From Gramella sp. MAR_2010_147 (GTDB taxonomy: Bacteria; Bacteroidota; Bacteroidia; Flavobacteriales; Flavobacteriaceae), in assembly GCF_900105135.1 (NCBI RefSeq), contig NZ_LT629741.1, positions 992,001-1,056,000 on the forward strand: a DNA stretch of 64,000 nt, in the 5' to 3' direction. The notes beneath the pieces are model-generated. The model worked only from the letters and a program-made list of their open reading frames with translations, did no database searches and had not been told where the DNA came from. A program made the position numbers and the translations under genes. The stretch's first letter is position 1. Each line of letters begins with the position of its first letter. Positions 27,053-54,662 of the stretch are shown here, piece by piece.

Positions 27053-27973
27053 CTATTTAGTAATGGGAAGATAAATCTCTGCTTTCCAATTTTCAGAATC
27101 AATTTCCCGTTTTGGGTTGTTATGAAAAACTTCTAAAGGCAATGCATTAGTATTCAACTCCTGTTCTTCTACTTGATGTAAAAGATCATACCATGCAACA
27201 TGAGAAAGTCTGTAGTTCCCATTAAAAATTGCTTTGATAGCTGAAAATGATTTCATTTCCCTAAAATCTACTTCAGGCGTAGGTTTAATGTCCTGGGCAA
27301 GATTCACAGGAAAACAGAAATCAAAGTCTATTGAATTTTTTTCTCTGTCCCATCTAGTGATCTTAACAAATGGCGGGCCGGTAAGTTGTATATCTCTTTC
27401 CAGAACATAATTTTCCAGATAACCAATCGTGCTCAGCATTTCTCGAGCCTTGGATTTTACCGGAATATTCGTGGAAGAATGACAAATACAATTCATCTCT
27501 GGTGAAGTGGTTATACCAGATTTCACAGATACCTTATAAGTTTGTTGTACCTCATTCAATCTATTTTTGAAGCCTAGTATCCGTTGTTTTAGAGTATCTA
27601 TATACATACTGGACTGGAACGGATTAATTATAGCTAACCTGTTTTTTAATTCATTTATAGAAGAACCCACATTTAAACTAATATTGGTAACCGAATCATT
27701 CTTTTTCTCAAACTCCCAATACATTTCAAAATCGCCAGAATCTCCAACATTTATCCTTTGAGTGATATTTTTAAATGGAGTTCTATTAATTACAGCTATA
27801 TTTTTTTTACTAGATCCAGGACTAAAATTTTCCCAATCAGATATTTTATAATAAGCTACACCTGGTCCGTATTTAGATTCAAATTGAAATTCGTAATCAT
27901 ATTTTTTAATAAATAAATACCAGACTAAACCTGATACGAGAAGTATCAGAAAAAACAACAGAATCTTTTTCAT
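27053..27973 (-). CDS. Membrane-anchored protein with GyrI-like effector-binding domain
   Basis: A 306-aa protein with one N-terminal membrane segment (residues 3-20, KILLFFLILLVSGLVWYL). A beta-rich first domain follows (from about 30; contains PGVAYYKISDWENF), resembling SRPBCC/polyketide-cyclase folds. The C-terminal half resembles bacterial AraC-effector-binding / GyrI-like domains: SAIKAIFNGNYRLSHVAWYD, then a late segment ending EIYLPITK. No DNA-binding domain is present, so this is not a classical regulator. It is the last gene of the SusCD-VCBS operon (3 bases after the haloperoxidase-like gene) and probably binds a small ligand in the envelope. Domain calls are by pattern and of moderate certainty. 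Confidence 0.65.
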   Translation of the reverse strand: MKKILLFFLILLVSGLVWYLFIKKYDYEFQFESKYGPGVAYYKISDWENFSPGSSKKNIAVINRTPFKNITQRINVGDSGDFEMYWEFEKKNDSVTNISLNVGSSINELKNRLAIINPFQSSMYIDTLKQRILGFKNRLNEVQQTYKVSVKSGITTSPEMNCICHSSTNIPVKSKAREMLSTIGYLENYVLERDIQLTGPPFVKITRWDREKNSIDFDFCFPVNLAQDIKPTPEVDFREMKSFSAIKAIFNGNYRLSHVAWYDLLHQVEEQELNTNALPLEVFHNNPKREIDSENWKAEIYLPITK

Positions 27974-27976
27974 AGG

Positions 27977-29323
27977 TTAATTAGAGGCAATTTCAGCAGA
28001 TGAACTAGTCATTTTCAAATTATCAATCACGTAAGCTCCCAGTTGATGACCTTGTTCTAAACCAACTTCAATTGCAGCACGATAATGTATACCCCCGTAA
28101 AGCCTACTATTAGCGGCTTCTTCTGAGGCTGCCTTAAAAGAAGGAAAGCTTCTTATTGGCAGTCCATAATCAACTTCAGTATCGTCATCAAAACTAAAGT
28201 TTTCGCCAAAAATATCAGTCAGCGCAATCGCCGCAGCTCCAGAAATTACAGAATGCCCGCTGGTATATTCAGGAAATGGGGGAGTTTGTAGAACAGAACT
28301 CCAGCTTTCATCTATATATTTATTGATAAGGGTTTCTGGTCTTACAAGATTACTTCTATATTTTTCATCCCAACAGCTAATAAAAGCATCGGCAATAGCC
28401 ATGGAAGTTTTAGCATAAGCATATACAGATTTGTCAAAATCAGCTTCAGATTTTTGACAGGCAATTTTTGTAATTCCAATCCAGTGGCCACCGGGAGTTA
28501 TTTTCTTTGTCGCGAACATCAAATGACCTCTAAGAATAGATACATATGGATTACAATCCCAGAATTTGGCAATCGCCATCTTCTCACTATTTTCTTCATC
28601 CTGAGCGATCTCTTCCCTTATATTATAAACCTCCATTAATTCATTATGAAACCTGCTACCCTTTTCCATTGAAAACTCCGGTGGTGGCGCAGGTTTAAAC
28701 TGGTTAGAAGAATCTATAACAAATGGTCTTATTTTCATCCAGTGAGGTTCTATCCCATCCATATAAGAAGGTGGTGTTGGCTGCCATCTGCTTTCATCAT
28801 CTGTTCTCACCGTGAATTTTGGCATGGTGCGGGTTTCTGCATAATTATCCTGACTCATCCAATTCTTTATATGCTGGGCCACCTTCATCCCATAAGCTTC
28901 TGAAGCTAGAAACACCTCTTCATCTTTTTCCTTCCATGAATTAAAAAGACTGTCCCTTTTCTTAGTCATCTTTTCTTCTGTAAAGACCAGACTTTTTCCA
29001 ATTTCGTAAAAAGCCGTAAGTGCTGCCATTTGCGGATTTATATTTTTCGAATCTGGTTTGGGAACAGCACTAAATTCTGTCAACTGTCCAGCCAAAGAAT
29101 TGTAATTCTGATTGAACTGGGACATTACCTCATAGGCTGCAATATTTGAATAGGCATATACCCTGCTTGCTACTGGAGGTGAAAAAATATCGTGCACCAT
29201 CGTTTTGCTCAAATTTTCATTTGCTGCATGAAAATCATCACCTGTAATGATTATTTCCTGAGATCTGTCTTTGCAGGAAATTAATATCATCATAAAAATA
29301 GTGATCAAAAAAATCTTCCTCAT
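27977..29323 (-). CDS. Vanadium haloperoxidase-like / PAP2 superfamily lipoprotein
   Basis: A 448-aa lipoprotein with lipobox LISC (Cys17). The three phosphate/vanadate-binding motifs of the PAP2 and vanadium haloperoxidase superfamily are present: KYRSNLVRPETL near 326, YTSGHSV near 352-358, and SRLYGGIHYR near 406-415. The active-site His residues are therefore retained. The protein is all-helical elsewhere. The family contains both acid phosphatases and haloperoxidases and the motifs do not separate them; true halogenation is unproven. It starts 1 base after the preceding VCBS gene and is followed by the GyrI-like gene after 3 bases, so it is translationally tied to the VCBS operon. Confidence 0.88.
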   Translation of the reverse strand: MRKIFLITIFMMILISCKDRSQEIIITGDDFHAANENLSKTMVHDIFSPPVASRVYAYSNIAAYEVMSQFNQNYNSLAGQLTEFSAVPKPDSKNINPQMAALTAFYEIGKSLVFTEEKMTKKRDSLFNSWKEKDEEVFLASEAYGMKVAQHIKNWMSQDNYAETRTMPKFTVRTDDESRWQPTPPSYMDGIEPHWMKIRPFVIDSSNQFKPAPPPEFSMEKGSRFHNELMEVYNIREEIAQDEENSEKMAIAKFWDCNPYVSILRGHLMFATKKITPGGHWIGITKIACQKSEADFDKSVYAYAKTSMAIADAFISCWDEKYRSNLVRPETLINKYIDESWSSVLQTPPFPEYTSGHSVISGAAAIALTDIFGENFSFDDDTEVDYGLPIRSFPSFKAASEEAANSRLYGGIHYRAAIEVGLEQGHQLGAYVIDNLKMTSSSAEIASN

Positions 29324-29324
29324 C

Positions 29325-32300
29325 TCAAAAATTTATTTTATAAAGTTCAGCTTTCCCATCATTAACAGTCACCAGTAAATAAGGTTCACCGGATATATTA
29401 ATAACTGAAAAATCCTTTACTGATTTTTGTGTTAAATTTAAGCCAATTTCATTTGAATTCAGAATTTTATGGGGGTTAATTATTATAGCACCTCCCATTC
29501 CATCAAAAGTTCCATGATAAGGAGTAACTCCAAAATAATTCCCTCCAATTAGCACTTCTTCAACACCATCCTTGTTAAAATCATATTTAAACATGGCCCT
29601 GATAGGAGCAGTTTGAAGTTGATTCTTAAACCTTCGGAATTTATACTTACCCATATTATTTTCAAGATATCCAGAAGATAAAGTGTGTACCTTTAAAATT
29701 TCAGCATCGTTAAGCTCTTCTGGTTTAAAAATTTCAGTTACGGTCTTTCCGGCAAAATCTTTATACGTTGCAAATCTTTTTCTAATTAACTGACTTAACT
29801 GCGCTGAAAGCTCATCCATTCCATAGAGAAAGTAATATTTTCCTTCTTTTTCTGTCGCCAGCAAAGTTTCAGTAAGTCCATTATCATCAAAATCCTTATA
29901 ATACATTAGGAGTGGATAATCTTCTGAAGCTTTAAATTTGGAATTTAGGCCCCAATTACCCAAAAGAAGATCCATATCTCCATCATGATCTATATCTGCA
30001 GCAAGAACTTTTTGCCATAATCCGTTGAGTTTCTCATTTATTTTTTGATTGGAAACATCTCTGAATTTTCCGTTCTCATTTTCTAAAAATTTTGGTGCCA
30101 TCCACTCCCCTACTGCAATAAGATCGAGATCATTGTCATTATCAAAATCTATCCAAATGGCATCATTCACCATTCCCAGATTCTCAAATATTTCTGATTG
30201 TTCTGAAACTGAAAAATTCCCATGATTGTTTTTCAATAGAAATGACTTTGGAGTTGCTCCATAGTTGTAATTTACAGAATTGGCTCCTATAAAAATATCT
30301 TCATCTCCATCCTGATCAAAATCTGCAGAACGTATTACAGAAGAGTTACTGAACATCTTAGGGAAAATAGAATCCTTTTTAAATTTTTTGTCGTTAGTTC
30401 CAAGGTATAATCTGTCTACAAGATTATCATCCCGCCCTATAGATTCTCCGCCGCCGGAAGCAAAAAGAAGATCTGCCAAACCATCATTATTAATATCTTT
30501 CACCAAAATATCTGAATCTTCCATCAAAGAATCCTTTTCTACTTCATTTAGACCTTTAAACTCAAAACCATTTTTATTCTGAATATAGGATTGGACGGGA
30601 TAGAATCTTGATCCTCCAAAAATCACATCATCTAAACCGTCATTATTAAGATCGGCTACTTTTACTGCCGGTCCCAGATCAGACATTTTATGCGGAATCA
30701 GTTTTTGAACATCGAAATCATTAAAGAGATTCTCCTGATGGGTAAAGCTCAGACCAAAATCATTTTCAGATCTAGAAAACCAGCCATCTTTTTTAGGATA
30801 GAATAATTCTTTAATATCAATTTTCTTATCTGAAGCTTTTGGTGTAAGAATATGAGCCGTGTTAGGTTTTATAGACTTTAAGGTTTGAAGGCTCTGATCT
30901 GGCCAGATGATGCTAAGAGAATCAATCTCAGCATTTTTAGGCAACCCAAAATGAATAATAGGCTCAGAAGACGACTGCCAGGATTTCGTAGTATACAACT
31001 GTCTAAATTGCTTTCCTGCACTGGTATATAGAATTGCTTTAGTGCCCAGTCCAAAATTGTTTCCTCGTTTATATTTAAAGCTAAGTTTCAGAAAATTTCC
31101 TGAAGTATGATTATTGATATAAAGACTTGCCGGACTATTCACATTATTGGTCACAATATCCAAATCTCCATCATTATCCAGATCACCAAATGCAAGACCT
31201 GTGGAAATAATTGAATCATTTTCAATCCAGACATCAGACATATCATTGAACATTCCGCCATTTTCACCTTTAAAAACATAATTGGGTACTGCTCCAGATG
31301 GCATATTATCCAACGCCTCATTATCTACCAGCGTGCTTTGGTCCAGCTTTTTTCGAATCTGTTCATTAGAAGTGAATTTTATATAATCAAGATCATTAGG
31401 CCGTTTAGGAATTCCATTGCTTATAAACAGATCCTGTAAACCATCCTGATCCAAATCAGCGAAAACTGCACCCCAACTCCAGTCTGTTGCAGCTACACCA
31501 CTCATAAGAGCTGTTTCAGAGAAAAAATTAGCTCCTTTATTGATCTGAAGCATGTTCCGGGTATATTGTGGATGATAGCCAAATTTTTCAGTTTTAAGGT
31601 TATGAAGGTTTTCATTATCGTCACCGGCAGAAGATTTTAAGACATTTTCATTTTCTGGCAACATATCCAAGGTTAGAAGATCAATAAAACCATCGTTATT
31701 AATATCTGCAGCATCATTTCCCATTGAGAATCGCGAAACATGACCAAAACTGGACTTTAGGGCTTCGTTAAAAGTCCCGTCTCCATTATTTAAATAATAA
31801 TAATCATCTTCATGAAAATCATTTCCCACATAAATATCTGTGAATCCATCATTATTAAAATCGGCGGTGCTTATACCCAGGCCATAACTGTTAGCTCCGC
31901 CATAAATTCCGGCCTCTTCACTAATATCCTTAAACTTCCCATTATCGTTCAGAAATAATTTATCACCACTTTCATATACCCTCTTATTTCTAATTTCTGA
32001 AGGACCAAAAGATTCGCTGGTATGAATTGCATGATTTAACAGGTACATGTCCAGGTCTCCGTCATTATCCATATCAAAAAAAGCTGCCTGTGAAGAGTAA
32101 TTTTCTAAATCCAGTCCAAATTCTTCAGCTTTTTCTGTAAATGTGAGATCTCCATTATTAATATAGAGTTCGTTATATCCCACAAAACCGTTCACTCCAA
32201 CTACCGCCGAGACATAAATATCTAAAAGTCCGTCGCCGTTTACATCTGCCATGGTAGTCCCGGTATTCCAGGTACTGTTTCCTTCTACCCCTGCTTTGCC

Positions 32301-32627
32301 AGTAATATCTTCGAATTTCAGCTCTCCCTTGTTTAAATAGAGTTTATTCTTTACCTGGTTTCCTGTAAAGTAAATATCTGGCAGACCATCATTATTAATA
32401 TCGCCTATGCTTACCCCTCCACCGTTATAGTAGTACAAGTAATCTAAAATATTCTGATCTCTGTTACTGGTAAGTTTATTGTTAAATTCTATTCCGGAAA
32501 GCTTTGCTGTGGGGTTTGAAAAGAATTTATCTTCCTCCTTTGTGCATCCACAAAGAAAAATAACCAGCATTTGAAATAGAACTAATTTATTGATTGCTAA
32601 CTTCAAATATTCTGGGTTTTTCATCAT
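29325..32627 (-). CDS. VCBS-repeat / ASPIC-UnbV lipoprotein (third copy)
   Basis: A 1,100-aa lipoprotein with lipobox LCGC after a leader that starts within the 3' end of the previous gene (41-base overlap), suggesting coupled translation. The N-terminal ~480 residues carry FG-GAP/VCBS repeats with calcium-type loops (DINNDGLPDIYFT, DVNGDGLLDIYVS, DMDNDGDLDMYLL). A central ASPIC/UnbV domain follows near 505-590 (NNFGLGTKAILYTS). A second set of VCBS repeats fills residues ~640-1,050 (DLNNDGLDDVIFGGS, DFDNDNDLDLIAVGE). This predicts two beta-propellers joined by UnbV. No catalytic motif seen; surface or periplasmic binding is the likely role. Third of three tandem paralogues in the SusCD locus. 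Confidence 0.9.
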   Translation of the reverse strand: MMKNPEYLKLAINKLVLFQMLVIFLCGCTKEEDKFFSNPTAKLSGIEFNNKLTSNRDQNILDYLYYYNGGGVSIGDINNDGLPDIYFTGNQVKNKLYLNKGELKFEDITGKAGVEGNSTWNTGTTMADVNGDGLLDIYVSAVVGVNGFVGYNELYINNGDLTFTEKAEEFGLDLENYSSQAAFFDMDNDGDLDMYLLNHAIHTSESFGPSEIRNKRVYESGDKLFLNDNGKFKDISEEAGIYGGANSYGLGISTADFNNDGFTDIYVGNDFHEDDYYYLNNGDGTFNEALKSSFGHVSRFSMGNDAADINNDGFIDLLTLDMLPENENVLKSSAGDDNENLHNLKTEKFGYHPQYTRNMLQINKGANFFSETALMSGVAATDWSWGAVFADLDQDGLQDLFISNGIPKRPNDLDYIKFTSNEQIRKKLDQSTLVDNEALDNMPSGAVPNYVFKGENGGMFNDMSDVWIENDSIISTGLAFGDLDNDGDLDIVTNNVNSPASLYINNHTSGNFLKLSFKYKRGNNFGLGTKAILYTSAGKQFRQLYTTKSWQSSSEPIIHFGLPKNAEIDSLSIIWPDQSLQTLKSIKPNTAHILTPKASDKKIDIKELFYPKKDGWFSRSENDFGLSFTHQENLFNDFDVQKLIPHKMSDLGPAVKVADLNNDGLDDVIFGGSRFYPVQSYIQNKNGFEFKGLNEVEKDSLMEDSDILVKDINNDGLADLLFASGGGESIGRDDNLVDRLYLGTNDKKFKKDSIFPKMFSNSSVIRSADFDQDGDEDIFIGANSVNYNYGATPKSFLLKNNHGNFSVSEQSEIFENLGMVNDAIWIDFDNDNDLDLIAVGEWMAPKFLENENGKFRDVSNQKINEKLNGLWQKVLAADIDHDGDMDLLLGNWGLNSKFKASEDYPLLMYYKDFDDNGLTETLLATEKEGKYYFLYGMDELSAQLSQLIRKRFATYKDFAGKTVTEIFKPEELNDAEILKVHTLSSGYLENNMGKYKFRRFKNQLQTAPIRAMFKYDFNKDGVEEVLIGGNYFGVTPYHGTFDGMGGAIIINPHKILNSNEIGLNLTQKSVKDFSVINISGEPYLLVTVNDGKAELYKINF

Positions 32628-35600
32628 TTACTGCAGCTATAATATAGGTTTTTCCGTTTTTATCTTTGAATCGTTTTAGAAATTTTACTTCATTTCTAAT
32701 ATTGAATCCACTCACATCGTAATCTTGCCATTCAAAGTTAAGTTTACCATCTCCTAAAAGTACATTTCCAAAACTTGCATCCAGTCTTGAAAATTGTGGT
32801 TTAAATTCAAAATTGTTACCCCCCATCACAAGATCAAGATTTCCGTCATTGTTCACATCCATACAAGAAATTCCGCATACACAGGAAAATTGAACACGGC
32901 CTGGCAATTCTTTGATAGTGAATTTTCCATTCCCTTCATTCACTGCTATAATAGTTTCTGAGATCACAACCTGCTTTACAAGGGCATTATCGAGTTTTTC
33001 TTTAGACAGTAATTCAGTAATAGCTTTCTTTGCATATTCTGAGGCTTTTAGGTTTTCTTTCTTCAATGATACCAATTGCGAGATCATCTCCTTTTTCATA
33101 TGAATTGGATAATCTTTACCATCTTTTTGTTGGGTAACCACCTGCTCTATCGTCCCATTATTATCAAAATCATTTACCCACATTTTCATGGGGTTTTCAA
33201 AAGAAGTTTTATAAGGAATGTTGGATCCTTTATTCCCCAGAATTAGATCCTGATCACCATCATTATCTAAATCTGCAGATTCCAGCGTATTCCACCATCC
33301 GGTATATTCATTAAGATTTGTTTTAAAGTTTGAAAGCCTCCTCCCTGTATTCTTAAAAATCTTAGGTGCGCCCCAATCTGAGACCGTTATAAGGTCCATA
33401 ATATCATCCCCGTCAATATCCTGCCATATGGCATCTGTGATCATCCCTGCATACTTCACGTCATAAGCGATACGTTCTGTTGAATTCACAAACTCTCCAT
33501 TGCCTTTATTTTCAAGAAAAAGATGCTGAGGATCGAGTCCGTAATTTACAGCAACACTTCTGGAGCCAATAAAAACATCCATATCTCCATCTGAATCAAA
33601 ATCATTTGGAGCAATCACAGCAATATTCTGATTTATGGAAGGGACTGTTTTGCTTGATGGCGTAAACTGCCCTTTACCATCATTTAAATAAAGTCTTGGT
33701 TTATGATTTTCATCTTCTCCAATCTCATTCCCGCCAGATCCTACCATTAGATCCTGATCTCCATCGCCATCAGCATCAAAAAATGCTGCGGAAGTGTCTT
33801 CAAATACTAAATCGTTTTTTAGCGCGGGTTGATTGGTTATGGAAAGATTTCCATTCCCTTTATTTAAATAAATAAGCCCGGATTGATCTTTGGCTCCCCC
33901 TATAAAAACATCTTCATTTCCATCTCCATTTACATCTGCCACTGCCAGAGCTGGCCCTTCCTGAGATAATTTTTTATAGATCATCCCTTCATAATCAAAA
34001 TCGGTATAATTATTTTCCTGATGAGTTTCAAGTTTTGTATTAGGAACCTCCACCAACAATTCTTTCTGTTGAATAGGTTTTTTAGGATTAAAAGTCTCAG
34101 CAGCATTTTCCTGACTCAAAACTAATGTTTGGTTTACTTTTATATCTGATAGAATTTCTGTTTTATTGTTAGGCCAGATGATACGTAAAGAATCAATCGT
34201 GGTTACCTCGCCCAAACCAATATTCATGGTATAGTCCATGGATGATTGGAAACCTCTGGAGGGATTTTGTTCCTGCATTACTATAGATTCTCCATAATAG
34301 AGCTTTATTTTACTGCCTATTCCAAAGCTATTTTCTTTGTTACCTTTCAGCTGAACCCTTAAGTAATTTCTGTTATCAAGTTTATCTGAATTATTACGAT
34401 AAATGAAAGATTCCATATTCACATTATTCACTACCAAATCCAGGTCTCCATCATTATCCAGATCTCCGTAAGCACAACCATTAGACAAACTTGGAGTTCC
34501 AAGGCCCCATTCCCGAGCAGCGTTTTTAAATTTTAAGTTTCCGGTGTTCCTAAAGGCGTAATTAGCCAATTTGGTGATGGGCATTTTATCAATGATTGAA
34601 TCTATTGCTTCTTTCTTTCCGGTAAGCGCCATGTTCTGAATAATTTCATTAGCAAAGAAATCTACAAAGTCAAGATCGGTAAGATCATGGTTAATTCCAT
34701 TGGTTACGTAAATATCCCGATTTCCATCATTATCCATATCAAAGATCAAACCTGCCCAACTCCAGTCGGTACTTTCTACCCCACTAAAATGTGCAATTTC
34801 AGAAAAAGAATTGTTCCCATTATTCAGCTGAAGTGTATTGTGGATATACTGCTGAAAAAAGTCCTTGCTCTGTTTTAGTTTGAAAACATTATAGCCTTCA
34901 AATTCCATCACAGATTTGGTTCTTTCTTCAGAATCTGGTAACATATCGGTTACAAAAATATCTGCATGACCATCATTATTGATATCGGCCATGTCAATAC
35001 CCATAGCGGAAAGGCACAAATGTGAAGTCCACTTCTCTATTTCTTCAGTAAAAGTTCCATCCTGATTATTAATGTATAGATAATCCCTTTCATAAAAATC
35101 ATTTGAAACATAAATATCTGGATAAAGATCATCATTGAAATCGCTCACCATTACGCCAAGCCCAAAACCTATAAGACTCCCGTAAATGTTAGCTTCTTCA
35201 CTTACATCAACAAATTTTCCGTTATCATTGCGAAGCAACATATCTCCAACTCCACGAAAAATTTTCGGAACACCTTCCCAATCCTGCGCACGAACTTCAC
35301 GCTGTTCAGCATAACCCAGACTGCTTACAGGAATATTACTGTTATTTAAAATATAAGCGTCTAAATCGCCGTCCTTATCATAATCAAAAAAGGAAGCGTG
35401 CGTGCTAAAACCAGTTTCAGCAAGATTATATTCAGCGGCCTTTTCTGTAAAAGTAAGGTCACCATTATTGATATAAAGATCGTTATCGTGATTATTACCT
35501 TCCATATTCCCGGCATTGCTCACATAAATATCCAAAAGACCGTCATTATTAATATCTACCATATTTACCCCAGTAGACCAGGGTTTATTACCTTCAATTC

Positions 35601-35955
35601 CCGCAGACTTAGAAATATCTTCAAATTTGAAGTTTCCTTTATTCAGGTATAATTTGTTAGGTTTCATGTTCGCGGTCAAATAAATATCTGGCAAGCCATC
35701 ATTATTAATATCGCCAATGGCAACCCCTCCACCATTATAAAAGTTTCGATATTTAAAAATATTGAAGTCGGGACTATTCTTTACTTCGTTTATAAAACTG
35801 ATTCCTGTTTCTTTAGATTCGAGTAAAGAATACAGCGTGTTCTTATCAATTTCTTGCTGATTTTCCTCTTTATCCTTATCATCAGATTTACAGGAGCACA
35901 GCATTAAAAATAGAAGTACACTGAAAATTTTAAAATATGATCTGGCATTAATCAT
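32587..35955 (-). CDS. VCBS-repeat / ASPIC-UnbV lipoprotein (second copy)
   Basis: A 1,122-aa lipoprotein with lipobox LCSC (Cys22) and the same layout as its neighbours: VCBS repeats (DINNDGLPDIYLT, DINNDGLLDIYVS, DYDKDGDLDAYIL), an ASPIC/UnbV domain near residues 525-620 (SFGIGSKIKLYYGES), and a second VCBS block (DVNGDGNEDVFIGGA, DADGDGDQDLMVGSG, DFDSDGDMDVFIGSR). It starts 4 bases after the first copy's stop and overlaps the third copy by 41 bases. Its divergence from the other two is clear by eye, so the duplication is old. The three copies may recognise different parts or forms of one substrate (inference). Confidence 0.9.
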   Translation of the reverse strand: MINARSYFKIFSVLLFLMLCSCKSDDKDKEENQQEIDKNTLYSLLESKETGISFINEVKNSPDFNIFKYRNFYNGGGVAIGDINNDGLPDIYLTANMKPNKLYLNKGNFKFEDISKSAGIEGNKPWSTGVNMVDINNDGLLDIYVSNAGNMEGNNHDNDLYINNGDLTFTEKAAEYNLAETGFSTHASFFDYDKDGDLDAYILNNSNIPVSSLGYAEQREVRAQDWEGVPKIFRGVGDMLLRNDNGKFVDVSEEANIYGSLIGFGLGVMVSDFNDDLYPDIYVSNDFYERDYLYINNQDGTFTEEIEKWTSHLCLSAMGIDMADINNDGHADIFVTDMLPDSEERTKSVMEFEGYNVFKLKQSKDFFQQYIHNTLQLNNGNNSFSEIAHFSGVESTDWSWAGLIFDMDNDGNRDIYVTNGINHDLTDLDFVDFFANEIIQNMALTGKKEAIDSIIDKMPITKLANYAFRNTGNLKFKNAAREWGLGTPSLSNGCAYGDLDNDGDLDLVVNNVNMESFIYRNNSDKLDNRNYLRVQLKGNKENSFGIGSKIKLYYGESIVMQEQNPSRGFQSSMDYTMNIGLGEVTTIDSLRIIWPNNKTEILSDIKVNQTLVLSQENAAETFNPKKPIQQKELLVEVPNTKLETHQENNYTDFDYEGMIYKKLSQEGPALAVADVNGDGNEDVFIGGAKDQSGLIYLNKGNGNLSITNQPALKNDLVFEDTSAAFFDADGDGDQDLMVGSGGNEIGEDENHKPRLYLNDGKGQFTPSSKTVPSINQNIAVIAPNDFDSDGDMDVFIGSRSVAVNYGLDPQHLFLENKGNGEFVNSTERIAYDVKYAGMITDAIWQDIDGDDIMDLITVSDWGAPKIFKNTGRRLSNFKTNLNEYTGWWNTLESADLDNDGDQDLILGNKGSNIPYKTSFENPMKMWVNDFDNNGTIEQVVTQQKDGKDYPIHMKKEMISQLVSLKKENLKASEYAKKAITELLSKEKLDNALVKQVVISETIIAVNEGNGKFTIKELPGRVQFSCVCGISCMDVNNDGNLDLVMGGNNFEFKPQFSRLDASFGNVLLGDGKLNFEWQDYDVSGFNIRNEVKFLKRFKDKNGKTYIIAAVNDEKPRIFEVSNQ

Positions 35956-35959
35956 GCAG

Positions 35960-38900
35960 CTAATTCTTTTTTAATATCAATGGATTACCATTGTTAGTAG
36001 TTATTATAAAATATGTGGTGTTATCAATACATAAAGATTCTATATCCCTTGCAGCCCCTGAAATATTTGGTGATTCATTAGAAACTTCAAAACCACCGGT
36101 GCCATTGTTTATTAATATACTCCCATGAGATGCATCTAATCTACCTAATTGTGTACTTATTTCATAGTTATTTCCACCTAAAAGAAGATCATCAAAACCA
36201 TCATTATCAAAGTCGAATTTTTCGATAGCAAAAATAGGTGAAACCTGAGTTTTGAGAGGTAACCTATGTTTCCTGAACTTACCATTTCCTCTATTTTCAA
36301 AATAACAGCTGGCAAGTTCAGTAAGTTTTTTATTTATAGATCCATTTAGTTTTTCTTTGGAGAATATCTCCTCAAACGTTGCATTGGCAAAATCGCTATA
36401 GGTGCGAAATTTCTTTTTTAAGAATGGCATTTGTTGATCCAGTTCATCTTTTGAAGATAATACTGTTTCCTCGTCTTCGTAGAAAAAGGTAATTATCGGC
36501 TCAGGGGTACCATTATCATCAAAATCATTAATATACAGGTTTATAGGGCGCTCCTGTGAGGCAGTTAATCTGCTGTTCAAACCCCAATTACCAGCAATAA
36601 TATCCAGGTCTCCGTCATTGTCAAAATCAGCGATTTCTAAACTATTCCACCAGCCTGAAAAATCATCAATATTAGATACCTGTTTTTTAAAACCTTTTCC
36701 TTGTTGATTTAAAAAGATTGTTGGTGCGATCCAATGTCCCACAATGATAAGATCTTCATAGCCATCTCTATTCATATCCATCCACTTCACATCCTGGATC
36801 ATCCCCATATTCTCCGGTAATATTTGCGTTGAAACCTTGCGAAAGTTTCCGTTACCATCATTCTCAAGAAGATAATGATCTGGATCCTCCCCTAGCTTTC
36901 CGGGAACAATATTAGCTGAAATAAAAATGTCTTCAAATCCATCGTTATTATAGTCTACTTTAGTAATGCTGGAAGCGTTGAGACTAATATCCTTAAATTT
37001 TGAATTATCTATTTTATATCCTTCCTCTGTATTAAAATACAGCTTTGGCTGAAGAGCTTTGCCAGCCTCAAATTCATTCCCACCACTAACCACGATAATA
37101 TCCAGATCTCCATCATTTTCTATATCAATAAGCAATTGAGCAGTATTCTCTGAAATGGCATCAGCTTCAAAAACCTTTTCATTCACTTGTTCAAATGAAT
37201 TTTCTAAATTTTGAATCCATATTTGAAGAGGCTGCCCCTTACCGCCTCCAATTACAACATCTTCTAAATTATCATCATTGAGATCTCCCACCGAAATCTT
37301 CGGACTTAGATTAGAATAAGCGAACGGTGATAGAATCTGCTTATTAAAATCTAAAGTATTTTGTTCTTTATGTTTTTCAAATCCAAATTGTAAGGATGCA
37401 TCCTGTAGATAAGGATCAGTTATTTTAGCAGTATTATCTACATTATTAGAGTTAGAATACTCAAATTTTATAGTTGAATTCGCGTTTAAGTTTCGTTTGA
37501 TGTTCACAGTACCATCATACCATTCTACCTGAGCAGAGTCTATTACTATATTTTTTCCTAATCCAAATTGCAAACCCTCCGCGAGCGAGGATAAATACCC
37601 CCGAGATAAATAATGCTCCTGAACCTGTGTAATAGTTCCAGTATATACCGTCACTTTTGCTCCAATGCCAAAATAATTTGATTCCGGACCTCTTAACTTG
37701 ACTTTCAAATAGTTACCAGGATTTTTTAGATTCTCTGATAGGTTTTCTAAAATATAGACTTTCTCATCTGTATTATTTACTACTAGATCTAGATCGCCAT
37801 CGTTATCAAGATCTGCATATACACTTCCGTGGCTAAAACTTTTATTGTTGGGTATCCACTTTGAAGACATATCTTCAAAAGTTAGATCTCCATTATTTTT
37901 AAAAATAAAATTTTTGATTTTCTTCTCGGGAAGCTCCCTGGTAAGAATTTCAAGATCCACATCTTTTCCCTGACTCAACTGTCTTTGGATCTTATCGTTA
38001 CTAATATATTTAATATAATCCATATCATTTGTCACTCCCTTAATACCATTAGTGACAAAAAGATCTTTCTGGCTATCATTATCAAAATCGGCAAACAAAG
38101 CACTCCAGGACCACTCTGTTGCAGCGATGCCACTAAGAAATGCCATTTCAGAAAAATTAAGTCCTCCCAGATTTAAATGAAAAGTGTTCTGCATATACTG
38201 TGGTGAAAAACCATTTCTTAAATAATTGGAATACGTCTGGAAGGGATACTCTAGACCTGAAGTCTTGTAGGTTTTGAGATCTCGAGGCAACATATCCAGA
38301 GAAACAATATCCAAGAACCCATCGTTATTAACATCAGCAATATCATTCCCCATAGAATAATGTGAAGTATGACCTAAACCGTTGGTTTCTGTAGAAATAA
38401 TATCCTTAAAACTTCCGTCTTTTTGATTGATATATAAATAATCATTCTCAAAAAAATCATTTCCTACATATATATCGGGATAGCCATCGCTATTCAGGTC
38501 TCCTACGCCTACACCAAGTCCGTAACCGGTAACGCCCTGAAAAATTCCAACTTTTTCTGAAATGTCTTTAAATTTTCCATTTATATTTTCATAAAATCTA
38601 TCGCCTGCCCTGGTATCAAAGCCTTCACGTTTATTTCCCTGACCGTAATTTTTATTTGGATGAGTTGAGTGATTTAACAAATACATATCCAAATCACCAT
38701 CCAGATCATAATCTAAAAAAACTGATTGGGTTGAAAATCCGCTAAAATCCAGGCCATAATCTTTAGCTTTTTCAGAAAAAACGGGAACACCATTTTTGTC
38801 ATTGCCCTGGTTTACAAACAATAAATTATGTCCTTCAAAATTTAATAGACCAGAAACTTTACAAACATAGAGGTCCATTAAACCATCATTATTGATGTCT

Positions 38901-39256
38901 ACATTACTTACTCCTGTAGTCCAGCCCGAAGAGTTTTCTATATGTGCCAGGCTGCTCACTTCCTCAAATTTAAAATCCCCCCTATTTAAATACAACTCAT
39001 CTTTAGCTTCATTTGAAGTGAAATATAAATCTACATATCCGTCCTGATTGTAATCTTCTGCTGAAACTCCGGCCCCGTTATAATAATACAGGTAATTTAA
39101 AATATTAACATTAGAATTTTCATTTAAGACATTGCTAAAGTGAATGCCTGAATGTTCCGCCGGGATGAATTGAAAAAGTTTTTTTTCTTTTTCACATGAT
39201 GAAGAAAAGAAAAGCATACATAAAATAAGGTAAATAGTAAGATTATTTCGCAACAT
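35960..39256 (-). CDS. VCBS-repeat / ASPIC-UnbV lipoprotein (first copy)
   Basis: A 1,098-aa lipoprotein with a lipobox ending SSSC (Cys21). VCBS repeats begin at about residue 60 (EDYNQDGYVDLYFT, DINNDGLMDLYVC, DYDLDGDLDMYLL), the ASPIC/UnbV domain lies near 515-600 (YFGIGAKVTVYTG), and a second repeat block follows (DLNDDNLEDVVIGGG, DFDNDGDLDIIAGNW). It is the first gene after the susD terminator, so its expression depends on read-through or on a promoter in the ~100-base gap. Family members are found in Bacteroidota SusCD loci and in animal CRTAC1; the molecular function is not established. Confidence 0.9.
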   Translation of the reverse strand: MLRNNLTIYLILCMLFFSSSCEKEKKLFQFIPAEHSGIHFSNVLNENSNVNILNYLYYYNGAGVSAEDYNQDGYVDLYFTSNEAKDELYLNRGDFKFEEVSSLAHIENSSGWTTGVSNVDINNDGLMDLYVCKVSGLLNFEGHNLLFVNQGNDKNGVPVFSEKAKDYGLDFSGFSTQSVFLDYDLDGDLDMYLLNHSTHPNKNYGQGNKREGFDTRAGDRFYENINGKFKDISEKVGIFQGVTGYGLGVGVGDLNSDGYPDIYVGNDFFENDYLYINQKDGSFKDIISTETNGLGHTSHYSMGNDIADVNNDGFLDIVSLDMLPRDLKTYKTSGLEYPFQTYSNYLRNGFSPQYMQNTFHLNLGGLNFSEMAFLSGIAATEWSWSALFADFDNDSQKDLFVTNGIKGVTNDMDYIKYISNDKIQRQLSQGKDVDLEILTRELPEKKIKNFIFKNNGDLTFEDMSSKWIPNNKSFSHGSVYADLDNDGDLDLVVNNTDEKVYILENLSENLKNPGNYLKVKLRGPESNYFGIGAKVTVYTGTITQVQEHYLSRGYLSSLAEGLQFGLGKNIVIDSAQVEWYDGTVNIKRNLNANSTIKFEYSNSNNVDNTAKITDPYLQDASLQFGFEKHKEQNTLDFNKQILSPFAYSNLSPKISVGDLNDDNLEDVVIGGGKGQPLQIWIQNLENSFEQVNEKVFEADAISENTAQLLIDIENDGDLDIIVVSGGNEFEAGKALQPKLYFNTEEGYKIDNSKFKDISLNASSITKVDYNNDGFEDIFISANIVPGKLGEDPDHYLLENDGNGNFRKVSTQILPENMGMIQDVKWMDMNRDGYEDLIIVGHWIAPTIFLNQQGKGFKKQVSNIDDFSGWWNSLEIADFDNDGDLDIIAGNWGLNSRLTASQERPINLYINDFDDNGTPEPIITFFYEDEETVLSSKDELDQQMPFLKKKFRTYSDFANATFEEIFSKEKLNGSINKKLTELASCYFENRGNGKFRKHRLPLKTQVSPIFAIEKFDFDNDGFDDLLLGGNNYEISTQLGRLDASHGSILINNGTGGFEVSNESPNISGAARDIESLCIDNTTYFIITTNNGNPLILKKN

Positions 39257-39306
39257 ATTGCTTAAAAGATGACATCTTCAATTGTCCTAATGTAATGTTA
39301 AAAATA

Positions 39307-39337
39307 AAAAAAGAGGGCTAAAACAGCCCTCTTTTTT
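39307..39337 (-). terminator. Terminator/attenuator between susD and the VCBS genes
   Basis: 13-bp stem (core AGAGGGCT / AGCCCTCT), loop of 5, with T-runs in either direction. On the minus strand it follows the SusD stop by about 16 bases and precedes the first VCBS gene. It probably lowers expression of the distal genes relative to susCD. Confidence 0.85.
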
Positions 39338-39353
39338 AGAAATATTCTTTCAA

Positions 39354-40889
39354 TTAATATCCCTCATTCTGAACAAGATTTGGATTTGAGATTAACGCTG
39401 ATTCTGGAATAGGATATACTATTCTGTAAGCATCAGTATTACTTTTAAACTCCCATGTATCTGAAAAAGCTCCAAAACGAACCAGGTCATTCCTTCTCCA
39501 GAATTCACCATATAATTCGCGTCCTCTTTCTGCTAACATTTCTGCATCAGAAACACTGGAAAGACTGGAAGCTTTACGCAAGTCTCTAAGTGTATTAACC
39601 ATTTCGGTCACATCTTCACCCATACGCATCATCGCTTCAGCCTTCATTAAATAAGCATCTGAAAAACGGAAAATAATTTCATGATTAGCAAATGAACCAT
39701 TTGATGGGTGATACTTAATAACACGTATACCGGTTCTTTCATTATTACCCACAAGACCAGGTAATTGTTTAGTAAAATCTAAGGGTGTACCTTGTCTGGT
39801 TTGAAGTGCAGTTCCATCAGCATCATATTGCTGACCAACTAAAAATCCATATCCAATACCAAAATTCTCCTCAGTGGCCGTGGAAGCATCGGGAACAAAT
39901 CCTCGACGTTCTTCCTGCCCATCTCCAACAAAATTCGTGTTAGCATCTCCTTCAAACAGATCGTAGAATTCTGCTAGCGTAGTGAACCCATTCCATCCTC
40001 CACCGGTATTATCTGGTGCATTTTGGTTATAATGTAAAGTGTTCCAAATTCTATTACCCACACTTGAAGTAGTAAAGAAGATAGTTTCATTATCTAACTC
40101 TGGAGCGAAAATATCGAAATATCCTTCTTCCAATGCAAATCCTTTAGCTTCAAGAGCATTTACATTATCTATTACACGCTGCATATCTGCAGCATCAACA
40201 GATTCAGATCCATAATAAATATTTTTATTCAGGTACAGTTTTGCTAATAGAAAATTAGCCGCAGCTTTAGAGGCAAAATTTAGATCAGAGTCCATTGAAG
40301 AAGGATCTGCAAGATCTGGTAAAGCCGTGGTTAGATCATTTACAATAAAATCGAATGCCTCCTGCCTACTTAGAACCTGAGGATCAATATCAATACCTTC
40401 ATCAATTTCCCTGAATGGAACCTGGCCATAAAGATCCATTACCCAAAACATACTAAATGCCCTAAGAAATCTCGCTTCAGCTTCCTGTGCTGGAGACGGA
40501 TTACTTCGGGAATCTATAATTTCTGAAGCGTTAAATACATTTTGATTTTGCTCGTTCCAGGTATCACGTACGAATGGATGGATAGCGGTCCAGGTATGCT
40601 CATGAACCAATCGCCATAATCCATTATCACCCCAGTCTGTACCGCGGGTAGGCACTAATAATTCATCTGTACTAACTTCTTGAAGGGCGTATAAGTTACC
40701 CTGGTTCTCAATTTGGCCCCGAATGCTGTTATATACACCATCCAAAGCACCTTGCACATCACCAACTCCGGTAAACTCTCCGGTTTGGTTAGCAATAATT
40801 GAATCTGTTTCTTCTATTTCCAGATCTGTACAAGCAGACAGGCCAAGAAAGCTGCAAAAAATCAATAATTTGATACTCTTATTTTTCAT
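39354..40889 (-). CDS. SusD/RagB family outer-membrane lipoprotein
   Basis: A 511-aa surface lipoprotein with lipobox LSAC (Cys20). It has the SusD/RagB layout: an N-terminal SusD-like region (GDVQGALDGVYNSIRGQIEN), helical TPR-like segments (AEARFLRAFSMFWVMDLYGQ, then VPFREIDEG), and the C-terminal region with SDAYLMKAEAMMRMG and YGEFWRRNDLVRFG near the end. It forms the lid over the SusC transporter and binds the substrate. It is encoded 11 bases downstream of the susC-like gene, as usual. No recognisable starch-specific residues; the ligand is unknown. Confidence 0.94.
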   Translation of the reverse strand: MKNKSIKLLIFCSFLGLSACTDLEIEETDSIIANQTGEFTGVGDVQGALDGVYNSIRGQIENQGNLYALQEVSTDELLVPTRGTDWGDNGLWRLVHEHTWTAIHPFVRDTWNEQNQNVFNASEIIDSRSNPSPAQEAEARFLRAFSMFWVMDLYGQVPFREIDEGIDIDPQVLSRQEAFDFIVNDLTTALPDLADPSSMDSDLNFASKAAANFLLAKLYLNKNIYYGSESVDAADMQRVIDNVNALEAKGFALEEGYFDIFAPELDNETIFFTTSSVGNRIWNTLHYNQNAPDNTGGGWNGFTTLAEFYDLFEGDANTNFVGDGQEERRGFVPDASTATEENFGIGYGFLVGQQYDADGTALQTRQGTPLDFTKQLPGLVGNNERTGIRVIKYHPSNGSFANHEIIFRFSDAYLMKAEAMMRMGEDVTEMVNTLRDLRKASSLSSVSDAEMLAERGRELYGEFWRRNDLVRFGAFSDTWEFKSNTDAYRIVYPIPESALISNPNLVQNEGY

Positions 40890-40900
40890 TGCTGTTTTTT

Positions 40901-43900
40901 TTAAAATTTTGCGTTTACTCCGAAGGTAAATGTTCTGGCTCTAGGATATGATGTATTATCTATCCCTGCAGTTGGAAGTCCATTTAGTGGTGTTTGAGTA
41001 CTAACCTCTGGATCTAAACCACTGTAATCTGTGATTAGGAAAAGGTTCTGACCATTTACATACAAACGAAGATCGTCTAACAATGCATCATCTCCCAGTT
41101 CAAAAGTATAACCCAGGCTGGCATTTTGCAATCTTACAAAATCTCCCTTTTCAAGAAATCTTGTAGATACATCTGGCGCATTCAAACGAGATTCCCCGTT
41201 CGTTAAAACATCCTGTGTTACGTTTCTACCTGTATTAAGGTTACCTGCAGTAAATAATGCATTGGCAGTGTTGTTATACACATAGAAACCAAATTGTCCT
41301 GCAAAGAATAACGACGCATCCCAGTTCTTATAAGTAGCACGTGTGTTTATTCCTAAATTTGTTGTGGGCAAAGCACTTTTATCTACAAACTCCTGCTGAT
41401 CTCCATTTGGATAAATAGAAATACCGTTTTCATCAAATCCACCAAACTCTCTCAAATAATAAGAAAATAATGGGCGATTCTCTACAAGTAATTGAGAAAA
41501 AGCACCTGTTAAACCCTGTCCAGATATTTGAGCACTTTGAATTTGTCCATCAAAATTTTGAAGTTCATTTTCATTATAAGAAATATTGAAGCCAAAATTC
41601 CAGAAAAAATCATCAGTATCAAAAACATCATAATCTAAAGCAAATTCAATTCCTTTATTTATAAGGTTTCCGTCAATATTTTGAAAACTAAATGGCGCTG
41701 GGCTAGGTTGTGCATTTTGCACCAACAGCAATAGATCTTTGGTATCTTTATAATAAAGGTCTAAACTACCTGATAATCTATCCTGGGCAAAACCAAAATC
41801 AACACCTAAGTTTGTCTGGGTTGTTGATTCCCATTTTAGATCTGGATTACTAAACCCGGCATTGCTGAATCCACCTCCATTAACATTGCCTCCGTTATCT
41901 ATACCATAACCATTGGCATTTCTTCTAATGGTAAAGTTACCATATCCAAGACCATCCTGGTTACCTGTCACACCATAACCTAATCTTAGCTTAAGAGTTG
42001 ATATTGGATCAGAAATAAAATCTTCCTGATCTATTTTCCATGCAAAAGCACCGGAAGGGAAATACCCATATTTTTCTGAAGGACCAAATTTTGATGAACC
42101 GTCAGCCCTCATCGTTACAGTAAAAAGATATTTATCTGCTATGGTATAATTAATTCTTGTAAAAAAGGATTGTAATTCATCATAGTTTTCAAAAATACCT
42201 CCTGTAACTGAATTTAAATTTAAACTAGGCGCATTAAATGCAACATTACTTTGCTCTTCTGGAAATAATCTGGTTAACTGACCTCCGTTAGGACCCACTC
42301 CAAATGTTTGATAAGTCCCATCGATACTATTTCGGATGTTATTAAAATCACCTCTAAACAGGCCTATCATTTCCTGAGTATTGGATGTTTGAAATCCAAA
42401 ACCAGAACCGTAAACCCCTTCTCGATCGAATTTTTGATAAGAATATCCTGCAAGTGCAGAAAGATTTGAATCACCAAATTCTTTATCATAATTAACCACA
42501 AATTCCAAAAGTGTATTGGTAAGTGTTCTATCATCTAACAGCGAACGACCATTGCCCGGAACACCGTTGGTTAACCCCAAAATATCTGAAGAATAAGCTA
42601 CAGTTTTTTCAGAGTCTGATCTATCATATCCTAAAGTTACTTTGGCGTTTAAATTTTGTAGGATATCATAATCTGCAGAGAAATTCAATAGAACTCTATC
42701 TGTTTCAGTAATATCATCAGTGTATTGTAATAATTGGAGAGGATTCAAATTTCCTCCTCCCGGATCAAAAGTAACATCTGCCGGGAATGTAGGATTCGTA
42801 TAATAAGTGGCTGCTAATAGATCTCCCGCGGCACCTGGAGCATTTGCAATTGGCACAGCCTTATCATCAACCTTTGAATAGGTAGCCTGTAAAGCCAGAT
42901 TTAATCTATCATCCAGGAATCTTTGATTTATGTTAAGTCTTCCTGTGAGTCTTTCAAGCTCAGATCTTTCAACAATACCATTAATATCATTATATCCCAG
43001 TGATACTCTAACATTACCACTTTGATAACTATTCATATAAGAAAGGGTATGATTTTGAGAGAAAGCTGTTCTAAAAACTTCATCCTGAAAATCTGTATCG
43101 GCTCCAAAATCTACATCATCAGGATTACCTCCTAAATCTGCAATTCCCTGTAAAAATTGATCTCTATTCAAAAGATCATAAGTATTTGCAGGACTGGCAA
43201 CACTTAAAGAACCATCATATGTGAATGCGCCTCCCTGAGCTCCCCTACCAGATTTCGTTTGAATAATTACAACTCCATTGGCTCCACGTGAACCATAAAT
43301 AGCAGTTGCTGAAGCATCTTTTAAGACACTTATACTTTCAATATCGCTTGGATTTAAAAAATTTAAGGGATTTCTTGCTGAACTCGAACCAACCCCAAGA
43401 TCTCCACTCCCTACTGAAGTATCATCCCCAGAAAGTGGAACACCATCTACCACAAATAGCGGATTGTTATTTGAACGAACTGAGGTTGTACCTCTAATTC
43501 TCAGGGCAACTCCTGCTCCAGGTTCACCACTGGCCTGAGTTATTTGCACACCTGCAGTTTTACCTTGTATTAATTCTTCTGGCGACGCAATGTTACCTTT
43601 GTTAAATTCTTCTGCAGTCACCGAGGATACAGCTCCGGTAGCATCCCGTATGGTAGTGGTACCGTAACCTATCAATACAACTTCGTCAAGTTCAGATGCA
43701 TCGGTTTCCAAATTAACATCAATTGTAGATCTACCACTAACTTTCATTTCCTGAGAAACATAGCCCACAAAACTAAAAACCAGTGTTGCATCTATTGGCA
43801 CGTCATTTAAGGTATAATTTCCATCAAAATCTGTGGTGGTTCCTGTACTGGTCCCTTTAATGGCTACTGTGGCGCCGGGTAACGGACCATCAGCATCCGT

Positions 43901-43993
43901 AACGGTCCCGGAGACTGTTTGCTGTGCATTAGTCATTCCGCAAAAAAGGAAAACTGCAACAAGCAAAAAGCCCCTGAAGATAATTTTTTTCAT
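40901..43993 (-). CDS. SusC/RagA family TonB-linked outer-membrane transporter
   Basis: A 1,030-aa TonB-dependent transporter. A signal peptide of about 23 residues (ending GMTNAQ) is followed by a carboxypeptidase-like regulatory beta-sandwich (VSGTVTDADGPLPGATVAIK). Then comes the plug with its characteristic start (DEVVLIGYGTTTIRDATGAV), LRIRGTTSVRSNNNPLFVVD and LKDASATAIYGSRGANGVV, and a 22-strand barrel ending in ARTFTFGVNAKF. It imports a nutrient with the SusD-like lipoprotein. A 28-bp palindrome lies about 95 bases upstream of the start codon. No glycoside hydrolase or lyase gene is nearby, so this is not a conventional polysaccharide locus. Confidence 0.95.
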   Translation of the reverse strand: MKKIIFRGFLLVAVFLFCGMTNAQQTVSGTVTDADGPLPGATVAIKGTSTGTTTDFDGNYTLNDVPIDATLVFSFVGYVSQEMKVSGRSTIDVNLETDASELDEVVLIGYGTTTIRDATGAVSSVTAEEFNKGNIASPEELIQGKTAGVQITQASGEPGAGVALRIRGTTSVRSNNNPLFVVDGVPLSGDDTSVGSGDLGVGSSSARNPLNFLNPSDIESISVLKDASATAIYGSRGANGVVIIQTKSGRGAQGGAFTYDGSLSVASPANTYDLLNRDQFLQGIADLGGNPDDVDFGADTDFQDEVFRTAFSQNHTLSYMNSYQSGNVRVSLGYNDINGIVERSELERLTGRLNINQRFLDDRLNLALQATYSKVDDKAVPIANAPGAAGDLLAATYYTNPTFPADVTFDPGGGNLNPLQLLQYTDDITETDRVLLNFSADYDILQNLNAKVTLGYDRSDSEKTVAYSSDILGLTNGVPGNGRSLLDDRTLTNTLLEFVVNYDKEFGDSNLSALAGYSYQKFDREGVYGSGFGFQTSNTQEMIGLFRGDFNNIRNSIDGTYQTFGVGPNGGQLTRLFPEEQSNVAFNAPSLNLNSVTGGIFENYDELQSFFTRINYTIADKYLFTVTMRADGSSKFGPSEKYGYFPSGAFAWKIDQEDFISDPISTLKLRLGYGVTGNQDGLGYGNFTIRRNANGYGIDNGGNVNGGGFSNAGFSNPDLKWESTTQTNLGVDFGFAQDRLSGSLDLYYKDTKDLLLLVQNAQPSPAPFSFQNIDGNLINKGIEFALDYDVFDTDDFFWNFGFNISYNENELQNFDGQIQSAQISGQGLTGAFSQLLVENRPLFSYYLREFGGFDENGISIYPNGDQQEFVDKSALPTTNLGINTRATYKNWDASLFFAGQFGFYVYNNTANALFTAGNLNTGRNVTQDVLTNGESRLNAPDVSTRFLEKGDFVRLQNASLGYTFELGDDALLDDLRLYVNGQNLFLITDYSGLDPEVSTQTPLNGLPTAGIDNTSYPRARTFTFGVNAKF

Positions 43994-47805: not shown

Positions 47806-47821
47806 AACCAACCTTTGAATT

Positions 47822-49057: not shown

Positions 49058-49067
49058 ATTACAGTTT

Positions 49068-50204: not shown

Positions 50205-50215
50205 AAGAATTTATA

Positions 50216-51268: not shown

Positions 51269-51279
51269 AATAACCAACA

Positions 51280-54038: not shown

Positions 54039-54057
54039 TTGACATACGATATAAATA

Positions 54058-54088
54058 AAAAAAGCGGCTTTAAAGCCGCTTTTTTTAT
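54058..54088 (+). terminator. Rho-independent terminator after superoxide dismutase
   Basis: Inverted repeat AAAAAAAGCGGCTTT / AAAGCCGCTTTTTTT, stem about 13 bp with a small loop, ending in seven T. Confidence 0.9.
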
Positions 54089-54128
54089 TTGTTATTTAAA
54101 CCTATATTTATTTCCTCAAACAACATTT

Positions 54129-54659: not shown

Positions 54660-54662
54660 GAA

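Follow-up and report, generated by a model that had tools for sequence, protein, structure and literature searches.

A flavobacterial SusCD operon with three UnbV propeller lipoproteins and an iodoperoxidase orthologue, probably serving the uptake of trehalose- or sucrose-like sugars

In the 64,000-nucleotide stretch of Gramella sp. MAR_2010_147 DNA analyzed here (the window; positions 992,001 to 1,056,000 of contig NZ_LT629741.1), seven minus-strand genes form one unit encoding SusC, SusD, three FG-GAP/UnbV lipoproteins (V1, V2, and V3), a lipoprotein of the PAP2/haloperoxidase kind (VIPO), and a GyrI-like membrane protein. This unit is probably a conserved flavobacterial operon for nutrient uptake at the cell surface, with trehalose- or sucrose-like sugars as its substrates. 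In a more specific form, which we favor with moderate confidence, it would be a LacI-controlled SusCD operon for small non-reducing glucosides, trehalose in the first place and sucrose in the second, in which the propeller proteins would form a complex at the surface and an iodoperoxidase would play an accessory part.

Results

Organization of the seven-gene unit

Protein families were assigned by Pfam/NCBIfam profile searches with family cut-offs. The first-pass annotation of the window, made from the letters alone, had described a tight minus-strand unit of seven genes, and the same open reading frames were recovered with agreeing gap sizes and 41-base overlap (in order, 11, 97, 4, -41, 1, and 3 bases).

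40901..43993, minus strand: SusC/RagA TonB-dependent transporter (TIGR04056, 694.6 bits against a cut-off of 368; TIGR04057 signature)
39354..40889, minus strand: SusD-family lipoprotein (PF07980, 61.5 bits against a cut-off of 23.1)
about 39306..39337 (place read by hand), minus strand: terminator-like element between susD and V1, a strong hairpin with a T run behind it
35960..39256, minus strand: V1, FG-GAP/UnbV lipoprotein of 1098 amino acids (PF13517 and PF07593 above cut-off)
32587..35955, minus strand: V2, FG-GAP/UnbV lipoprotein of 1122 amino acids (PF13517 and PF07593 above cut-off)
29325..32627, minus strand: V3, FG-GAP/UnbV lipoprotein of 1100 amino acids (PF13517 and PF07593 above cut-off)
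27977..29323, minus strand: VIPO, vanadium-haloperoxidase-type lipoprotein, orthologue of a Zobellia iodoperoxidase (PAP2, 34.7 bits against a cut-off of 27.2)
27053..27973, minus strand: membrane-anchored protein with a C-terminal GyrI-like domain (PF06445, 26.9 bits, barely above the cut-off of 26)

The 97-base gap between susD and V1 folds at -24.7 kcal/mol (z -4.2), and its hairpin and T run bear out the terminator proposed earlier for a gap of about 100 bases. The susC and susD genes stand in tandem, as in SusCD utilization loci. None of the seven proteins gave a glycoside hydrolase match in the Pfam/NCBIfam search, which agrees with the earlier observation that the unit holds no carbohydrate-active enzyme; glycan-degrading enzymes, absent from the seven genes, are encoded beside many of the orthologous operons. 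The nearest solved chains to SusD were 3jys (99 bits) and the starch SusD 3ck7 (96 bits), both distant. The GyrI-like protein, whose earlier assignment holds just above the family cut-off, also matched EcmrR weakly, and its structural model (predicted local distance difference test, pLDDT, 86.6) consists of an N-terminal helix at residues 2-22 followed by alpha/beta parts.

Conservation of the cluster

The closest named matches of V2 belonged to Christiangramia/Gramella, Gillisia, and Salegentibacter (77-88% identity). When a family sample of 199 Flavobacteriaceae genomes, each from a different genus, was searched, 91 contained a VIPO match (E up to 1e-20), which exceeded 400 bits in 84; the seven genomes with a best match below 400 bits and the extra copies present in some genomes were kept outside the counts. 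From 100 stretches taken around VIPO matches, each at most 20 kb long, the 86 with a VIPO of at least 45% identity were analyzed. The neighborhood maps give the longest open reading frame with its best BLASTP match to the window proteins and chosen neighbors and are not an annotation; one match, in locus L133, was missed by this labeling and left out of the counts.

A UnbV/FG-GAP gene was located at most four genes upstream of VIPO, on the same strand, in 75 of the 86 loci (directly upstream in 69), and nine loci had no UnbV gene upstream. Random association of the UnbV genes with this SusCD, which the first-pass annotation had named as one outcome that would overturn its proposal, was rejected on this count, and the UnbV genes belong to a conserved surface system. 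Within these stretches, SusC and SusD were each found in at least 58 of the 86 loci and GyrI in 49. Over all mapped loci, VIPO (at least 55% identity) occurred with GyrI in 70, of which 38 had the unbroken order SusC-SusD-V1-V2-V3-VIPO-GyrI. In a second layout, called type B, SusC is more distant, GyrI is absent, and a lipoprotein of about 196 amino acids stands between the propeller genes. VIPO matches were also present in 80 of the 395 genomes of a phylum sample, again often beside a UnbV gene, and VIPO was seen in 29 of 43 named loci picked by V2 instead of VIPO (counted by eye; some others are cut short).

Further genes recur around the cluster. The 196-residue lipoprotein gene of the type B clusters lies among the propeller genes in L031 (16995-17597) and 18 more loci, and the member that was scanned had no Pfam match. 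A gene for an SdiA-regulated/phytase-like lipoprotein stands behind the cluster in 26 of the 86 loci (for example, L032:2235-3089), often next to a ShlB-match gene on the opposite strand. In L034 (12190-16908) and 14 other loci, genes for xylose isomerase and a xylulokinase-type kinase interrupt the operon, mostly together with a sodium symporter gene; they are found either between SusD and V1 or between V3 and VIPO.

Sugar genes beside orthologous operons

The lack of glycosidases had earlier been taken to suggest a substrate handled by binding and by phosphatase or halogenation chemistry, which amounts to a non-glycan substrate. This argument did not survive the comparison with relatives, in which the orthologous operons often adjoin genes for enzymes of glycoside hydrolase (GH) families GH37, GH97, GH13, GH100-like, or, in one locus, GH32. 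Within about 4 kb behind the cluster and in its orientation, GH97 was found in 11 of the 86 loci, GH13 in five, and sugar transporters of the major facilitator superfamily (MFS) in 16; GH100-like or GH37 trehalase genes also follow the cluster in some relatives. Any sugar gene, counted when upstream in the stretch or at most three genes downstream on either strand (XylA/XylB and 3-keto genes included, a lone sodium symporter not), was present near the cluster in 48 of the 86 loci.

The GH37 trehalase (PF01204) was detected in 56 of the 199 family genomes, 50 of them with VIPO (odds ratio 26.7, Fisher p 7e-18, uncorrected for phylogeny). Among the 50 genera that have both, GH37 was at most 20 kb from VIPO in 19, on the same strand in 19/19 and downstream within 8.4 kb in 18. 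The long form (at least 600 amino acids) accounted for 18 of these 19, and the L084 copy, the sole one whose start was inspected, is lipoprotein-like. GH97 was 1-4 kb from VIPO in at least 11 genomes, picked by eye among the matches listed, with the same strand in 11/11. In the phylum sample, GH37 and VIPO occurred together in 38 genomes (80 with VIPO, 77 with GH37; odds ratio 6.4). Distances, taken for 37 genomes after omission of the weak peroxidase row G572, placed GH37 at most 20 kb from a VIPO match in 13 genomes, seven of them outside Flavobacteriaceae; of these seven, three represent one genus, two have the genes on opposite strands, and one (G576) has a weak peroxidase match.

The order in L191 (Olleya) is MFS-GH32-PfkB-SusC-SusD-V2-V3-VIPO-GyrI-GH97-MFS-trehalase, and its predicted gene content is a sucrose and trehalose set. 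A starch locus was also considered, given the weak proximity of SusD to the starch SusD and 3jys and the GH97/GH13 neighbors. Because GH37 recurs among the neighbors, as does a GH13 nearest to phosphotrehalase models, this idea was reduced to "small alpha-glucosides" and retained only in that form.

The same neighborhoods could also be read as those of a promiscuous SusCD for monosaccharides such as xylose, gluconate, and glucose. XylB and XylA genes occur in 15 of the 86 loci, inserted at several places, and GntK-6PGD and GntP are present in L066, both of which would suit pentose or mixed-sugar uptake. However, monosaccharides pass through porins, and the same-strand GH37 and GH97 genes and shared operators favor disaccharides. 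We regard this alternative as very unlikely.

A palindromic operator before susC

The 308-base gap before susC contains a perfect 24-base palindrome, TTCCACGAAAACGTTTTCGTGGAA, at 44091-44114, with its center about 109 bases from susC; we take it to be a LacI-type operator. It is the sole match in the window to the motif CGAAANCGNTTTCG at up to one mismatch. The motif was sought in type A loci (SusC at least 39.5% identical, the window included, with enough upstream sequence; 24 SusC loci with fewer than 200 bases upstream were left out). A conserved, palindromic, CG-centered element precedes the first gene in 25 of the 33 type A loci, against 0.03% of shuffles of the same upstream stretches; the distance from its center to the start is 100-119 bases in 18 loci and 140-169 bases in seven. 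Altogether, the 3.59 Mb of loci contained 60 motif matches, of which 28 lie near SusC, 16 close to the starts of other genes, and 15 within genes, the remaining one lying elsewhere. Genes of the lacI family are divergent to susC in several relatives, and none was found among the 39 window proteins scanned.

In 10 loci, the motif also precedes the operon with GH97, GH13, or MFS genes that directly follows the cluster, and eight of these matches are exact. The first-pass annotation had regarded co-regulated carbohydrate-active enzymes just outside the unit as evidence against its proposal; such enzymes do occur in relatives, where ten loci carry the same operator before a sugar operon.

The peroxidase

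Over its full length, VIPO is orthologous to the Zobellia galactanivorans iodoperoxidase (PDB 4cit/4usz; 656 bits, E 2.6e-196) and scored at most 23 bits against any other solved chain. The residues K-x6-RP, SGH, and SR-x5-H, which we take as the active-site motif set of vanadium haloperoxidases, are all present (K321, R328, S355, G356, H357, R407, and H413). Among 140 relatives of at least 45% identity, K321, R328, S355, and H357 were conserved in 140/140, R407 and H413 in 139/140 (one gap each), and G356 in 138/140. The earlier assignment of a PAP2 protein of the haloperoxidase kind with every active-site motif was thus confirmed, and its orthology suggests that VIPO is a vanadate-dependent halide-oxidizing enzyme. 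One alternative is that it is a phosphatase that dephosphorylates a phosphorylated sugar or lipid before uptake. The PAP2 fold would allow this, and haloperoxidases and acid phosphatases have a common active site; the gulf between the scores to 4cit and to all other solved chains speaks against it, and we consider a phosphatase highly improbable.

It was also considered whether the whole unit deals with halogens, the peroxidase and calcium-binding propellers making or capturing oxidized iodine at the surface for defense, detoxification, or iodine uptake, with sugar only as an inducer or as fuel for H2O2. The orthology to an iodoperoxidase of solved structure, with the catalytic residues conserved, favors this, as does a glucose-methanol-choline (GMC) oxidoreductase gene adjoining SusC in 11 of the 43 named loci. 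However, LacABC-type GMC dehydrogenases are not known to produce H2O2, and halogen alone would hardly explain the presence of SusCD, the LacI operator, trehalase, GH97, and sugar transporters. Physiology offers some support: iodine uptake by Arenibacter C-21 requires glucose, O2, and Ca2+, glucose can be replaced by H2O2 or an iodide-oxidizing system, and at least five of the strain's genes are homologues of the one for the Zobellia enzyme (PMC5064120). This behavior fits a link between peroxidase and sugar. Overall, the halogen alternative appears unlikely. Ascophyllum, in comparison with alginate, induces a vIPO3 of Zobellia, according to excerpts of PMC9296495.

A second, distant haloperoxidase-like gene was observed a few genes behind VIPO in L155, L159, and L165, outside Flavobacteriaceae, and the genomes of L159 and L165 have a trehalase 3-6 kb from VIPO.

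The propeller lipoproteins

The three UnbV lipoproteins of about 1,100 residues with calcium-type loops were found as first described. Each scored 229-262 bits for FG-GAP_3 and 60-72 bits for UnbV, and D.[DN].[DN][GAS] loops numbered 12, 13, and 13 in V1, V2, and V3. They are the sole UnbV matches in the 3.16-Mb genome (E up to 0.001) and share 38-39% pairwise identity. In a tree of 198 V proteins, V1 and V3 each formed a clade of 53 loci (support 0.79 and 1.0), and V2 a clade of 76 loci (support 0.99) in which 16 loci, most of them type B, are represented by a second copy as well. Since each protein groups in its own clade with relatives from many loci, the triplication is old. Median identity to the window proteins was highest for V2 (68%), followed by VIPO (62%), SusC, SusD, and V3 (54% each), V1 (50%), and GyrI (31%); the V2 alignment omitted eight of 43 frames that were broken, cut, or split.

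The AlphaFold2 model of V2 (pLDDT 85.9; predicted template modeling score, pTM, 0.86) had CRTAC1 (9etn) as its top Foldseek match (E 2.4e-25; template modeling (TM) score 0.72 by target length), and the further structure matches listed were mostly multi-propeller proteins with low TM scores. FG-GAP repeats, a UnbV_ASPIC domain, and a matching fold thus mark a CRTAC1-like protein, the fold having been compared for V2 alone. An acidic stretch behind the lipid cysteine is the rule for surface export; such stretches follow the cysteine in V2, V3, and SusD, whose sequences would accordingly be compatible with export. UnbV genes were present in 84/84 VIPO genomes and in 70 of the 115 others of the family sample. 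Four stretches with UnbV genes from three VIPO-less genomes (L214-L217) showed different neighbors, with SusC, SusD, and UnbV together in one, indicating that UnbV is a wider family.

Adjacent genes in the window

Upstream of susC lie two further minus-strand genes and a divergent set.

44302..44946, minus strand: gluconate 2-dehydrogenase subunit 3 (LacC-like) with a twin-arginine-like N-terminus, adjacent unit (PF13618 and sequence)
44959..46662, minus strand: GMC oxidoreductase, candidate LacA-like glycoside 3-dehydrogenase, adjacent unit (PF05199, PF00732)
46807..52035, plus strand: divergent 3-keto-glycoside genes for a TIM-barrel lipoprotein, a transporter of the nucleoside-H+-symporter family, a Gfo/Idh/MocA protein, a TIM-barrel isomerase (TIM2), and a 3-keto-disaccharide hydrolase (DUF1080)

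In the 43 named loci, GMC-subunit 3-SusC was seen in 11 and DUF1080-SusC in six (counted by eye). TIM2 was present in 76 of the 84 VIPO genomes and in 25 of the 115 others, an odds ratio of 34 without correction for phylogeny or lifestyle; the odds ratio with VIPO was 39 for the GMC gene and 2.0 for GH97, the single control. The Bacteroides DUF1080 protein BT2157 is a 3-ketotrehalose hydrolase, according to excerpts of PMC9007349.

These genes raise the alternative that the substrates are phenolic or other aryl glucosides, imported by the operon and cleaved by the 3-keto pathway, while the peroxidase acts on the aglycone outside by halogenation or coupling. Haloperoxidases do act on phenols. 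Moreover, lacABC in Caulobacter and a homologue in Pedobacter are important when the bacteria grow on salicin, as excerpts of PMC9007349 indicate. The recurrent neighbors are, however, trehalase, GH97, GH13, and sugar MFS genes, with no beta-glucosidase or ring-cleavage enzyme among the annotated neighbors, and we consider this explanation quite unlikely.

Elsewhere in the window, a GH15 protein with a trehalase-like N-terminal domain adjoins a fused OtsA-OtsB gene of trehalose synthesis (14425-18530, about 9-13 kb from the cluster), and an extracytoplasmic function (ECF) sigma factor gene is paired with an RskA-type anti-sigma gene beside a Cu/Zn superoxide dismutase gene (54039-55466).

Discussion

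On the favored reading, a sugar-uptake operon for small non-reducing glucosides, a LacI-family repressor would sit on the palindrome at 44091-44114 and be released by the sugar, and susC would then be transcribed. SusD and the three propeller lipoproteins may capture the sugar at the surface for import by SusC, as their families suggest. In the window genome, a periplasmic GMC/subunit-3 dehydrogenase and the DUF1080 enzyme would oxidize the sugar and cleave it as a 3-keto-glycoside; in relatives, the linked trehalase, GH97, or GH13 enzyme may cleave it instead. The iodoperoxidase-type lipoprotein would be a frequent but non-obligate accessory that, most simply and speculatively, consumes H2O2 with halide at the surface during sugar feeding.

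Several observations weigh against this reading. No sugar gene was present in the examined stretch of 38 of the 86 loci, and in the window genome the cluster is distant from both the GH37 trehalase gene and the two GH97 genes, near which no operator was found at up to one mismatch. Other sugars are suggested by XylA/XylB and by isolated instances in which GntK/GntP, beta-galactosidase, or arabinofuranosidase genes are neighbors. The motif is missing from eight of the 33 type A loci, including two of Christiangramia, L187 (the closest named relative) and L186, and from 25 of 27 type B loci (it is present in two). TIM2 was at most 25 kb from VIPO in only five of 76 genomes, so that its association is mostly shared distribution and not linkage. 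In L068, the cluster has the opposite orientation between the same flanks, and the GMC pair is therefore a separate unit; the pair was rejected as an obligate operon part, and GMC stood beside the cluster in two of the 86 loci, whose stretches rarely extend past susC. Two loci chosen by V2 (L192 and L200, V2 at 53 and 58%) show no VIPO inside the stretch seen, which means that the peroxidase is not obligate. The peroxidase is without an evident job in trehalose uptake. Finally, the Fisher tests ignore phylogeny.

A bolder proposal joins both activities: a sugar-induced, calcium-dependent surface complex in which three CRTAC1-like double propellers sit on SusCD and the iodoperoxidase couples sugar feeding to H2O2-dependent halide oxidation. 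We consider it quite improbable. If it were true, the dependence of iodine uptake on glucose, O2, and Ca2+ in the flavobacterium Arenibacter C-21 would be accounted for, and flavobacteria that feed on trehalose or sucrose would act in the marine iodine cycle. The peroxidase is encoded in nearly half of the Flavobacteriaceae genera sampled, mostly beside UnbV genes. If the uptake reading holds, a regulon for sugar uptake would include an enzyme studied for algal defense or iodine, the giant lipoproteins would gain a role as a family, and trehalose or sucrose would be a concrete, testable substrate. The matches listed in our literature searches, which did not cover supplements, included no description of this operon, and the main text of PMC6298971 mentions none of FG-GAP, UnbV, VCBS, or haloperoxidase.

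Comparison with known systems

The unit resembles the SusCD utilization loci of Bacteroidota in its SusC and SusD above family cut-offs, in the lipoproteins of the same operon, and in the sugar genes adjacent in many relatives. It differs in having no carbohydrate-active enzyme, in the three two-propeller UnbV proteins that replace SusE/F-type binders, and in its peroxidase and GyrI-like protein. VIPO shares with the Zobellia iodoperoxidase (4cit, 4usz) its full length, catalytic residues, and lipoprotein-like signal, but is seen here inside a conserved SusCD operon. The GMC, subunit 3, DUF1080, TIM-barrel, and Gfo/Idh genes of the LacABC/DUF1080 pathway (BT2157, Caulobacter) are all represented in the window; here they lie beside, and are co-distributed with, a SusCD-UnbV-peroxidase operon. 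Like CRTAC1 and other ASPIC/UnbV proteins, V1-V3 have a UnbV domain behind an FG-GAP propeller, and the V2 model matches 9etn; in contrast to them, V1-V3 have FG-GAP repeats also after UnbV and are bacterial lipoproteins encoded as a tandem triplicate.

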